From contig NZ_JAHVJA010000003.1 of NCBI RefSeq assembly GCF_019801465.1, positions 434,001 through 498,000 of the forward strand: DNA of 64,000 nucleotides, given 5' to 3'. Of the stretch, positions 15,341 to 21,733 are shown one piece after another. The translations under genes were made by a program, and so were the position numbers. The notes under the pieces were generated by a model. The model was not told where the DNA came from. It ran no database searches and was given only the letters and a program-made list of their open reading frames with translations. The DNA comes from Leisingera daeponensis. Its GTDB lineage: Bacteria; Pseudomonadota; Alphaproteobacteria; Rhodobacterales; Rhodobacteraceae. Numbering within the stretch: position 1 is the first letter of the stretch; the number at the start of each line of letters is the position of its first letter.

Positions 15341-15375
15341 TTTGTGATCACGGGTTTTGGGGGTGTGATCACAAA
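15341..15375. promoter_or_regulatory. Paired GTGATCAC operator upstream of sucC
   Basis: Two perfect GTGATCAC palindromes (15344-15351 and 15365-15372) start 21 bp apart, about two helical turns. The outer flanks are TTT and AAAA, so the whole site is also an inverted repeat. The same arrangement is found upstream of sdhC at 21701-21733. The rest of the sucC-mdh spacer (15231-15529) holds the direct repeats, the mdh terminator and no gene. Confidence 0.75.
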
Positions 15376-15479
15376 ATAGCGGCACCTTGATGCGGGTGAT
15401 TCGAGATCAGGCCAAGAGCTGCCCCCGCCGCATCATGGAGCAAAAGCGGCAGCGCCGGAGCGGCGCCGCCGCGGCATGA

Positions 15480-15506
15480 GAAAAGGCCCGCCGGAAGCGG
15501 GCCTTT
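15480..15506 (-). terminator. Intrinsic terminator of mdh
   Basis: A perfect 10-bp stem AAAGGCCCGC/GCGGGCCTTT with a 5-nt loop lies 24 bp after the mdh stop and is followed on the minus strand by TTTT. It separates mdh from the sucC operon, so the two are probably independent transcripts. Confidence 0.85.
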
Positions 15507-15529
15507 CAGGTTTGCGGATGCTGAGCGCC

Positions 15530-16492
15530 TTAGGCCAGCGAGGCGTCGATACCCTTGCAGGCCTCGACCAGGCCTTTCACGGCGTTGACCGAGTTGTCGA
15601 ACATGGTCTGCTCTTCCTCGGTCAGCTGGATGTCGACGATCTTTTCGATGCCGCCGGCGCCGATCACGGTGGGGACGCCCACATACATGTCCTTGACGCC
15701 GATCTCGCCAGTGCAATAGGCGGCGCAGGGCAGCACGCGCTTCTGGTCTTTCAGATAGGCTTCGGCCATTTCGATGGCCGAGGTGGCCGGGGCGTAGAAG
15801 GCGGAGCCGGTTTTCAGCAGGCCGACGATTTCTGCGCCGCCGTCACGGGTGCGCTGCACGATGGCGTCCAGGCGCTCCTGGGTGGTCCAGCCCATCTTGA
15901 CCAGATCGGGCAGCGGGATGCCTGCAACGGTGGAGTAGCGCACCGACGGCACCATGGTGTCGCCGTGGCCGCCCAGGACGAAGGCGGTGACATCCTTCAT
16001 CGAGACGTTGAATTCCTCAGCCAGGAAGTGGCGGAAGCGGGCGCTGTCCAGTACGCCGGCCATGCCGCAGACCTTGTTCGCGGGCAGGCCCGAGAACTGC
16101 TGCAGCGCCCAGACCATCGCGTCCAGCGGGTTGGTGATGCAGATCACGAAGGCGTCGGGCGCGTGGTCGCGGATGCCTTCGCCGACGGATTTCATCACTT
16201 TGAGGTTGATGCCCAGCAGGTCGTCGCGGCTCATGCCCGGCTTGCGCGGCACGCCTGCGGTCACGATGCAGACATCGGCGCCGGCGATGTCCTCATAGGA
16301 CTGGGTGCCCTTCAGTGAGGCGTCGAAGCCCTCGGAGGGACCGGATTCTGCGATGTCCAGCGCCTTGCCTTCGGGGATGCCTTCGGCGATGTCGAAGAGA
16401 ACGACGTCGCCCAGTTCCTTCAGGGCTGCGAGATGTGCGAGGGTGCCGCCGATCTGACCTGCGCCGATGAGGGCGATTTTGGGTCGTGCCAT
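15530..16492 (-). CDS. mdh: Malate dehydrogenase
   Basis: Mdh oxidises malate to oxaloacetate with NAD+. The 320-residue protein is of the lactate-dehydrogenase-like class usual in alphaproteobacteria. It has the Rossmann motif [10 protein letters not shown], the mobile-loop block [24 protein letters not shown] and the catalytic His in [14 protein letters not shown]. The ATG at 16492 gives [12 protein letters not shown], and in-frame upstream codons lack any family similarity. It lies upstream of sucC but has its own terminator. Confidence 0.96.
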
Positions 16493-16652
16493 TGGAAAAT
16501 GTCTCCGGTCCGGTTGAAATTTCCCCTGATGCCTAAGGCGTAATACGGACCCGTGCAAGGGCTCTGCGCTGCGGCATTCAGCTCTGTATGCTTGTGTATA
16601 CCGGGCCGGTACCGCTAAACCGTATGGAATCTAGGGATTTCAGGGGCGGGCC

Positions 16653-19596: not shown

Positions 19597-19800
19597 ATGA
19601 AACTCTACCGATTTTTGTCCGAGGACGACACCTCCGCCTTCTGCCACAAGGTGACCGATGCGCTGAACAAGGGCTGGGAGCTGCATGGCAGCCCGACCCA
19701 GGCCTTTGATCCCGTCAAGGGGATCATGCGCTGCGGCCAGGCGGTGGTGAAGGACGTGGACGGAACCTACACCCCTGAGACCAAACTGGGAGAACACTGA
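19597..19800 (+). CDS. DUF1737 small protein
   Basis: The 67-residue protein begins KLYRFLSEDDTSAFCHKVTDALNKGWELHGSP, which is the DUF1737 pattern, and ends with a short polar tail. No function is known. AGGA lies upstream of the ATG, and its stop overlaps the mch start (TGATG), so the two are translationally coupled. Confidence 0.83.
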   Translation: MKLYRFLSEDDTSAFCHKVTDALNKGWELHGSPTQAFDPVKGIMRCGQAVVKDVDGTYTPETKLGEH

Positions 19801-20831
19801 TGGCCAAGACCAATCCGGGCCGGTTTTTCGAAGATTACACCGTCGGCGAGGTGATCCGCCACGCGGTGCCCCGCACAGTGTCGGGCGGCGAACGGGCGCT
19901 GTATCACGCGCTCTACCCGGCGCGCCATGCGCTCTATTCCTCGGATGAATTTGCCCGGGCCTCTGGTCTGCCTTCGGCGCCGCTGGATGATCTGGCGGCC
20001 TTCCATGTGGTGTTCGGCAAGACGGTGCCGGACATTTCCCTGAATGCGCTGGCGAACCTCGGCTATGCCGAGGGGCGCTGGCTGCTGCCGGTCTATCCCG
20101 GCGACACGCTGCGCTCGGAATCCGAGGTGATCGGGCTCAAGCAGAACTCCAACGGCAAGTCCGGCGTGGTCTATGTCCGCACCCGCGGGCTCAATCAGCG
20201 CGATGAATGCGTGATGGAATACGTGCGCTGGGTGATGGTGCGCAAACGCGACCTCGATGCCCCGGCGCCGGAGACGGTGATCCCGGAGCTGAACAAGGTG
20301 ATCCCGGTGGAGCAGCTGGTGATCCCGGCGGGGCTGGATTTCAGCAACTACGATTTCACTCTGGCCGGCGAGCCGCACCGCTGGGGCGACTATGAGGTCG
20401 GCGAGACGATCGACCATGTGGATGGCGTCACCATCGAGGAAGCCGAACACATGATGGCGACCCGCCTGTGGCAGAACACTGCCAAGGTGCATTTCGACAA
20501 TACCGCCCGCCCGGATGGTACAAGGCTGATCTATGGCGGCCATGTGATCTCGATGGCGCGCACGCTTAGCTTCAACGGGCTTGCCAACGCGCAGATGATC
20601 GTCGGCCTGAACGGCGGAGCGCATGCCAACCCCTGCCTGTCGGGACTGACGGTCCGGGCCTGGTCCGAGGTGCTGGACAAAGCCGACACCGCGGCACCCG
20701 GCGTCGGTGCGATCCGGCTGCGGCTGGTGGCGACCAAGGGCGGCGCGCCATTTGAGCTGAAGGGCGAGGACGGCAAGTACCTGCCCGATGTGCTGCTCGA
20801 CCTGGATTACTGGGCGCTGATGCCGAAGTGA
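19800..20831 (+). CDS. mch: Mesaconyl-CoA hydratase
   Basis: Mch interconverts mesaconyl-C1-CoA and beta-methylmalyl-CoA in the ethylmalonyl-CoA pathway. The 343-residue protein is a double-hotdog MaoC-type hydratase: FFEDYTVGEVIRH opens the first half and RWGDYEVGETIDHVDGVTIEEAEHMMATRLWQNTAKVHFD the second, and the block YGGHVISMARTLSFNGLAN follows. Length and halves match the Rhodobacter enzyme. It sits with mcl2 and close to ecm and ccr, which strengthens the call beyond a generic MaoC annotation. Confidence 0.9.
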   Translation: MAKTNPGRFFEDYTVGEVIRHAVPRTVSGGERALYHALYPARHALYSSDEFARASGLPSAPLDDLAAFHVVFGKTVPDISLNALANLGYAEGRWLLPVYPGDTLRSESEVIGLKQNSNGKSGVVYVRTRGLNQRDECVMEYVRWVMVRKRDLDAPAPETVIPELNKVIPVEQLVIPAGLDFSNYDFTLAGEPHRWGDYEVGETIDHVDGVTIEEAEHMMATRLWQNTAKVHFDNTARPDGTRLIYGGHVISMARTLSFNGLANAQMIVGLNGGAHANPCLSGLTVRAWSEVLDKADTAAPGVGAIRLRLVATKGGAPFELKGEDGKYLPDVLLDLDYWALMPK

Positions 20832-20952
20832 CCTGAAGGGGCCTTCCCCTCGCAAGCTGTGCCTGCTCAGCCCTGGAATATTTTGAACCGGATCGGCCGG
20901 GGCTGGCAGAATTGTGATGACCCGCCGCGCGATTGCCGCTTAAGCTGGCGGC

Positions 20953-21654
20953 ATGCGGGTTTTGCAGCTTCTGGTATTCTCCATGCTCTCCCTCTGGCCG
21001 CTGCGAACGGCGGCCTGCGATCTGGCATTGGTGCTGGCGGTGGATGTTTCCGGTTCTGTCGATGCCGATGAATACCGCATTCAGATGGACGGGCTGGCGG
21101 CAGGGCTGCGCGACGGGGTGGTGTCCGAGGCGCTGGTCAAGGCCCGTGCCCGGGTGCTGCTGCTGCAATGGTCCGGCCAGTCGCGCCAGGAGGTGACGCT
21201 GCCCTGGGTGGAGGTGCGGACTTTCGCTGATGTCGAGGCGCTGGCACAGCGGATCGAGCAGGCGCCGCGGCCCTGGCGCAACTATTCCACGGCAGTAGGG
21301 GAGGCGCTGTTTCTGGCACTGGAGCAGTTTCCGGCAGTCGCGCACTGCAAGCGCCGGGTGATAGATGTCTCCGGCGACGGGTTTTCAAACGAGGGGGTCG
21401 AGCCGCGGGCGGCGCATGCCGCGCTGGCGGCGGCGGATGTGACGGTGAATGCCATTGCCATAGAGCAGAGCGAGCCGGACCTGACCGCCTATTTCTTCGA
21501 AAATGTGATCCGCGGCGAAGGGGCCTTTGTGGTCTCTGCCGCGAGCTTTGCCGACTACCCGTCGAGCATCCGCAAGAAGCTGGTGCGGGAGGTGGCAAGG
21601 CAGACTGCGGGGCTGCCGGCGGGTGCGGTCAGGGCGGTTGCATCTTTGCAGTGA
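20953..21654 (+). CDS. DUF1194 protein with von Willebrand A-type fold, secreted
   Basis: The 233-residue protein has a signal peptide (about 1-22, ending RTAA) and a metal-ion-dependent adhesion-type site, AVDVSGSVDADEY, with the DxSxS pattern. Later blocks are LLLQWSGQSRQEVTLPW, RVIDVSGDGFSNEG and a C-terminal IRKKLVREV. This is the DUF1194 family, common and uncharacterised in alphaproteobacteria. It is probably periplasmic or extracellular and may bind a divalent metal. It precedes sdhC by 193 bp and is likely a separate transcript. Confidence 0.87.
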   Translation: MRVLQLLVFSMLSLWPLRTAACDLALVLAVDVSGSVDADEYRIQMDGLAAGLRDGVVSEALVKARARVLLLQWSGQSRQEVTLPWVEVRTFADVEALAQRIEQAPRPWRNYSTAVGEALFLALEQFPAVAHCKRRVIDVSGDGFSNEGVEPRAAHAALAAADVTVNAIAIEQSEPDLTAYFFENVIRGEGAFVVSAASFADYPSSIRKKLVREVARQTAGLPAGAVRAVASLQ

Positions 21655-21700
21655 TTTGCAGAATGGCCCCTGATTCTGCAAAAAATTTCCAATCGGCAGA

Positions 21701-21733
21701 TTTGTGATCACTAATTATTTGCTGTGATCACAA
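21701..21733. promoter_or_regulatory. Paired GTGATCAC operator upstream of sdhC
   Basis: GTGATCAC occurs at 21704-21711 and 21724-21731, starting 20 bp apart, with TTT before the first and AA after the second. The pair lies 117-144 bp before the sdhC ATG. The sucC operator has the same core, the same flanks and nearly the same position. Confidence 0.75.

Follow-up and report, generated by a model that had tools for sequence, protein, structure and literature searches.

The stretch of Leisingera daeponensis DNA analysed here (64,000 nucleotides of contig NZ_JAHVJA010000003.1, positions 434,001 to 498,000; hereafter the window) carries two operons of the tricarboxylic acid (TCA) cycle, each preceded by two closely spaced copies of the 8-mer GTGATCAC. 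On the minus strand the order is mdh, one pair of sites, sucC, an open reading frame (ORF) of 275 amino acids (aa), sucD, sucA, sucB and lpd. On the plus strand, the second pair is followed by sdhC, sdhD, sdhA and sdhB (Table 1). Both pairs are best read as operators of AkgR, a GntR/FCD regulator known from Rhodobacter sphaeroides, an assignment made from sequence comparison to which we give a probability of roughly 0.9.

The window holds seven copies of GTGATCAC, compared with a mean of 0.85 and a maximum of 4 in 100 dinucleotide shuffles of the same DNA. All seven lie where an earlier note on this DNA had placed them, and the pair spacings and start-codon distances given there are likewise exact. 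The sites before sucC are 21 base pairs (bp) apart (15344/15365) and those before sdhC 20 bp (21704/21724), with the sucC pair lying 114-142 bp from the ATG of its gene (15230, minus strand) and the sdhC pair 117-144 bp from that of sdhC (21848, plus strand). As read from the window sequence, each pair forms an inverted composite, TTTGTGATCAC-N12/13-GTGATCACAA. The three single copies had been taken for coding DNA and do fall within reading frames, at 12798 in sucD, 22468 in sdhD and 42977 in an ABC-permease-like gene. The copy at 12798 was considered as an operator and rejected, being in-frame coding DNA of sucD.

Across the 4.89-megabase (Mb) genome the 8-mer is commoner than the once per 65 kilobases (kb) assumed earlier: 173 copies were counted, or one per 28 kb, against about 53 expected by base composition. 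Pairs of copies with a gap of 2-32 number three in the whole genome, compared with 0.19 expected if the sites were scattered randomly, and the two in the window are the only ones outside a coding frame. The third (C10:63296-63324, 13-bp gap) lies within a Mur-ligase (folC-like) frame. Pairs looking similar to this Mur-ligase pair recur across many congeners.

Conservation was surveyed in 149 genomes of Rhodobacteraceae, each from a different genus, as exact pairs with a gap of 10-16. Such pairs occur in 133 of the 149, usually two per genome, and a reversed control pattern has 0 matches in each genome surveyed. A sample drawn across the class comprised 385 genomes, five from the family and 380 others, of which 13 match: the five family members and 8 of the 380 others. 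The control pattern matches in one genome of this sample only (G222, six matches). Several of the pairs in the eight non-family genomes lie within long reading frames.

The earlier note had counted absence of the pairs from related genomes as a refutation and had proposed to look for them before sucC and sdhC in other Rhodobacteraceae; they are present in both. All 21 congeneric genomes hold pairs when these are counted by pattern, apart from gene context; a 28-letter sdhC-like pair is present in 21/21, and a 29-letter sucC-like pair in all but G545. In a gap survey of 41 stretches (the window and 40 loci, mostly chosen for holding pairs), a pair precedes 37/37 located sucC genes and 34/37 located sdhC genes. 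At 20/20 loci chosen for having two pairs about 4.6-9.6 kb apart, one pair lies at sucC and the other at sdhC. The gap is 13 bp in 64 of the 71 pairs measured and 12 bp in the other seven (34 and 3, respectively, at sucC; 30 and 4 at sdhC). A 13-bp gap sets the site centres 21 bp apart, which is two turns of B-DNA. The operator pair seems to remain in front of the suc operon even when the first gene differs; in G136 (L278 8054-8082) it lies between mdh and sucA, and sucC was not found in that stretch.

Within this collection the 8-mers stay exact while the spacers vary between loci, a pattern that the choice of loci by exact match itself favours. This bears on the idea of a DNA-curvature or repeat element, kept by common descent and served by no dedicated protein. 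Such an element would suit the AT-rich spacers (AT fraction 0.63 in the sucC pair and 0.58 in the sdhC pair) and the A/T tracts that adjoin the sites on their following side. It sits poorly, however, with constant 8-mers between variable spacers, and with the lack of exact pairs from the examined upstream regions of genomes without AkgR, four pair-only genomes excepted. We therefore regard a protein-free element as very improbable.

Naming the regulator draws on a printed motif, predicted targets and the presence of an ortholog. Excerpts of PMC6365646 give GTGATCAC as one of the sites of the R. sphaeroides activator AkgR. Excerpts of PMC4344238 give the GntR protein RSP_0981 as a predicted regulator of sucCD (RSP_0967-6), sdh (RSP_0974-6) and the 2-oxoglutarate dehydrogenase genes (RSP_0965-62). 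Three features of the AkgR regulon are present in L. daeponensis: the GTGATCAC operator, its placement at suc and sdh, and an ortholog with GntR and FCD domains. They support the earlier proposal that suc and sdh share one regulator, and the regulator of the operator pairs can now be given a name.

The ortholog, a protein of 218 aa, is encoded outside the window at C7:3694-4350 (C7:3694-4347, equal to L024:1450-2103, without the stop codon). It is 77% identical over 217 aa to the product of a GntR gene about 0.75 kb past sdhB in G051, and 83% identical over 184 aa, up to a contig end, to that of a GntR gene about 2.3 kb past sdhB in G091. When the whole source genome was searched, the C7 gene was again the best match. 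A protein of Cereibacter ovatus is 94% identical to the GntR protein of G051. The window has a GntR gene of its own (59465-60172, plus strand), which was dropped as the regulator because the GntR genes past sdhB find their 77-83% match in another gene. Also rejected as an AkgR ortholog was the GntR gene that L093 (G114) carries beyond sdhB, whose best GntR matches in the source genome are about 26-30% identical.

Another GntR/FCD protein of the source genome might bind the pairs instead. Thirty-three GntR-domain hits were counted in this genome, pairs occur with no detected AkgR ortholog in four family genomes, and excerpts of PMC6365646 propose GTGATCAC also for PS417_07240, a protein 32% identical to AkgR. 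Two of the non-family pairs adjoin genes for more distant GntR/FCD proteins: the pair in G295 (L249 992-1020) lies beside one that is 31% identical to AkgR, and that in G260 (L258 1501-1532) beside one that is 36% identical, after which an aldehyde dehydrogenase gene follows. Yet among the 30 of 33 GntR loci examined for GTGATCAC, akgR alone has a copy within 100 bp before its own start; at locus L026 a copy lies about 370 bp before the ORF. Moreover, the AkgR ortholog tends to be missing where the pairs are missing, a joint absence examined for AkgR alone. Binding by a different member of the family is accordingly judged unlikely.

A site for a Crp/Fnr-type protein, or for CceR (which we take to be RSP_1663), rather than for a GntR protein, is suggested by TGTGA and TCACA, which are Crp-like half-sites. 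The Crp consensus is TGTGA-N6-TCACA, in contrast to the directly abutting half-sites found here. The predicted targets of RSP_1663 also include sdh and mdh, but its predicted motif, [AGT]GTT-N6-8-AAC[ACT], is unlike GTGATCAC, and no CRP-analogous proteins are predicted in R. sphaeroides, according to excerpts of PMC4344238. With both half-site spacing and motif different, Crp-type and CceR identities were rejected, and their chance of being correct is put at next to nothing. CceR might nonetheless act elsewhere, at a site of its own.

Pairs and AkgR also tend to occur together in the family genomes. Matches at E <= 1e-30 were found in 136 of the 149 genomes, and taking an identity of at least 64% to define an ortholog leaves 131. 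Pair and ortholog are both present in 129 genomes and both absent from 14, with four genomes having the pair only and two the ortholog only (Fisher p 2e-14, kinship ignored). Among genomes at least 90% complete, 11 have neither, two the pair only and one the ortholog only. In the genomes with neither, stretches of up to 1,500 bp upstream of 12 sucC and 13 sdhA genes contained no exact pair, the best pair-like match having three mismatches (G017, G101). One exact site was found 597 bp before sdhA in G029, probably inside sdh coding DNA, and one GTGATCAA 115 bp before sucC in G109. The two ortholog-only genomes are G147, which is 73% complete, and G040, in which each of the two pairs survives with one mismatch. 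A tree of SucC+SdhA from 54 genomes, built by a quick method, implies at least nine changes of akgR and at least six of the pair, and after correction for kinship the direction of co-occurrence is consistent but not significant.

The regulator's own gene carries a related site. The extended form TGTGATCACA, to which the sites at 15365..15372 and 21724..21731 both conform, has exactly three copies in the genome: once in the sucC pair, once in the sdhC pair and once 7 bp before akgR. About 1.7 copies are expected by composition, and it is the placement, not the count, that is unusual. The comparison was extended to 130 akgR upstream regions, comprising 129 of the 131 orthologs (G027 and G091 are cut by contig ends) and the relative in G033. 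An exact GTGATCAC lies within -120..+30 of the alignment-inferred start in 88 of the 130, and 80 of these 88 sites fall at -25 to -1. TTGAC followed after 13 nucleotides (nt) by GTGATCAC is found in 73 of the 88, over the predicted promoter. Among the nearest orthologs the site is present in 30/30, once at +6/7 and once at about -64 of the inferred start. By comparison, the site is found in only 16 of the 80 named loci whose proteins stand nearest to that of G051 (L195, one of the 80, is cut by a contig end), and G051 itself (L350) has no site at akgR and keeps TTGACC. The wiring of the akgR site thus differs by lineage. Because the site would cover the -10 region, it suggests autorepression of akgR.

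Separately, three congeners (G538, G539 and G550) hold 9, 10 and 10 copies of TGTGATCACA, several of which lie in a cluster on a single contig in G538 and in G539. The extra copies may represent a second GntR regulon.

Several points weigh against the AkgR reading and the circuit drawn from it. RSP_0981 is taken to be AkgR, and the AkgR sites reportedly stem from Imam et al. 2015 (mBio), which makes the tested sites second-hand here. G051 is probably R. sphaeroides 2.4.1 and its GntR gene is probably RSP_0981 by position, an indirect link; when extrapolated by hand, the coordinates that PMC4344238 gives for RSP_0488 and RSP_0773 come to within about 16 kb of the operators and akgR of G051. Three genomes (G120, G090 and G136) have AkgR but no sdhC pair, and four (G019, G033, G096 and G114) have pairs and no detected ortholog; of the latter, G033 has a 48% relative and G096 is 77% complete. 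Copies of TGTGATCACA range from 2 to 10 among congeners, and three targets are not the rule. Further, 42 of the 130 akgR genes are without an upstream site, 28 of which keep TTGAC within 60 nt before the start. The kinship test yielded seven independent contrasts, with a mean of 4.5 concordant and 0 opposite (median p 0.125, 0.0625-0.375), and is underpowered and not significant. In the genomes at least 90% complete there were five contrasts, 3.5 concordant and 0.1 opposite (median p 0.25).

If AkgR is the regulator, one dimer would occupy each GTGATCAC. The two dimers of a pair, separated by about two helical turns, would then share one face of the DNA, at sdhC approximately 100-120 bp upstream of the predicted start point. 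From this upstream position they could assist RNA polymerase at the promoters of sucC-D-A-B-lpd and sdhCDAB, possibly by binding cooperatively and contacting the polymerase at the promoter, and a metabolite signal may be involved. The steps from 2-oxoglutarate to fumarate would be coupled through the shared AkgR, while a single dimer on the akgR core promoter would limit the regulator's own synthesis. It is also reasonably likely that AkgR works in two such modes in most Rhodobacteraceae, with pairs activating suc and sdh and a lone TTGAC-N13-GTGATCAC shortly before the ATG repressing akgR. This loop would be old and widespread and would have been lost in the Rhodobacter/Cereibacter/Gemmobacter lineage, making the model species a rewired one.

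Table 1. Putative operators, genes and predicted promoter at the suc and sdh loci of the window
Feature	Position	Strand	Basis or remark
AkgR-type operator, proximal to sucC, putative	15344..15351	none	exact GTGATCAC
AkgR-type operator, distal to sucC, putative	15365..15372	none	exact GTGATCAC; 13-bp gap
AkgR-type operator, distal to sdhC, putative	21704..21711	none	exact GTGATCAC
AkgR-type operator, proximal to sdhC, putative	21724..21731	none	exact GTGATCAC; 12-bp gap
mdh, upstream neighbour of sucC	15530..16492	-	Pfam Ldh_1_N/C; start from translation
sucC, first target gene	14037..15230	-	Pfam ATP-grasp_2 + Ligase_CoA
275-aa ORF between sucC and sucD	13197-14024	-	no NCBIfam match
sucD	12299..13180	-	NCBIfam PRK05678 on longer ORF 12299-13288; ATG near 13180 from sequence
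sucA	9109..12186 (listed ORF; internal ATG 12060 probably true start)	-	NCBIfam PRK09404 + sequence
sucB	7588..9096	-	Pfam 2-oxoacid_dh
lpd	5357..6748	-	Pfam Pyr_redox_2/Pyr_redox_dim
sdhC, first target gene of sdh operon	21848..22237	+	Pfam Sdh_cyt
ORF holding sdhD (true start further in)	21991..22620	+	NCBIfam TIGR02968, residues 103-198
sdhA	22645..24453	+	NCBIfam TIGR01816
sdhB	24465..25244	+	NCBIfam PRK05950
predicted sdhC core promoter GTGACA-N16-TAAAAC	21792..21819	+	conserved GTGAC placement

Promoters for both operons can be proposed downstream of the pairs. Since terminator-like hairpins follow mdh, sucC probably has its own promoter. One of them, a GC-rich hairpin with a short T-run 3' of mdh at 15481-15506, was found by eye and is absent from the terminator scan; the scan reports another terminator-like site at 15446-15472, on the same strand as mdh. 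At sucC the promoter scan offers the candidate TTAACA-N16-GACAAT, which differs from a TTTAAC-like block 47-49 nt after the proximal site; TT[TG] stands at that distance in 21 of 37 sucC regions. At sdhC a consensus promoter scan called no promoter. Here, 24 of 34 sdhC upstream regions have GTGAC 58-61 nt downstream of the proximal site, commonly followed at a 16-nt spacer by hexamers starting with TA, and the promoter predicted from this placement would put the pair near -99 and -119.

Other features of the window are noted for completeness. Downstream of the sdhC operator and ahead of the predicted promoter lies GTT-N8-AAC (21742-21755), which resembles, except for the preceding base, the motif predicted for RSP_1663 in excerpts of PMC4344238. 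Elsewhere, the window carries a gene for a LuxI-type autoinducer synthase (35334-35975, plus strand; Pfam Autoind_synth). The 275-aa ORF between sucC and sucD has a sequence reminiscent of lipopolysaccharide glycosyltransferases.

In summary, two TCA operons and the regulator's own gene would form a small circuit, and the Rhodobacteraceae, a major group of marine heterotrophs, widely share the layout of two operators set a fixed distance apart upstream of sucC and sdhC. The literature passages searched contained no statement on the paired spacing or on AkgR autoregulation, either of which may be in print; the single akgR site over the predicted promoter is possibly new. Findings on how AkgR regulates itself in R. 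sphaeroides may not transfer to relatives that keep the akgR site.

Among solved structures, the best sequence match of the AkgR ortholog is McbR (PDB 4p9f; E 5.6e-22, residues 22-214), which presumably governs a different regulon. The PS417_07240-type regulator of deoxyribonate clusters in Pseudomonas and Burkholderia is likewise a GntR protein with a conserved GTGATCAC before its gene, but it is 32% identical to AkgR, is described with one palindrome and is proposed to act in deoxyribonate oxidation, not in the TCA cycle, in excerpts of PMC6365646. The AkgR regulon of R. sphaeroides, as far as the excerpts describe it, shares with the system in L. daeponensis its GTGATCAC sites, a GntR regulator and the targets sucCD, the 2-oxoglutarate dehydrogenase genes and sdh. 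The R. sphaeroides-like G051 also has two pairs at suc and sdh, both with 13-bp gaps, whereas its akgR is without a site. In L. daeponensis, by contrast, akgR lies on another contig and has a single site of its own, and the sdhC gap is 12 bp. Regulator, motif and targets are thus already known in R. sphaeroides, and the operators described here are new members of that system.

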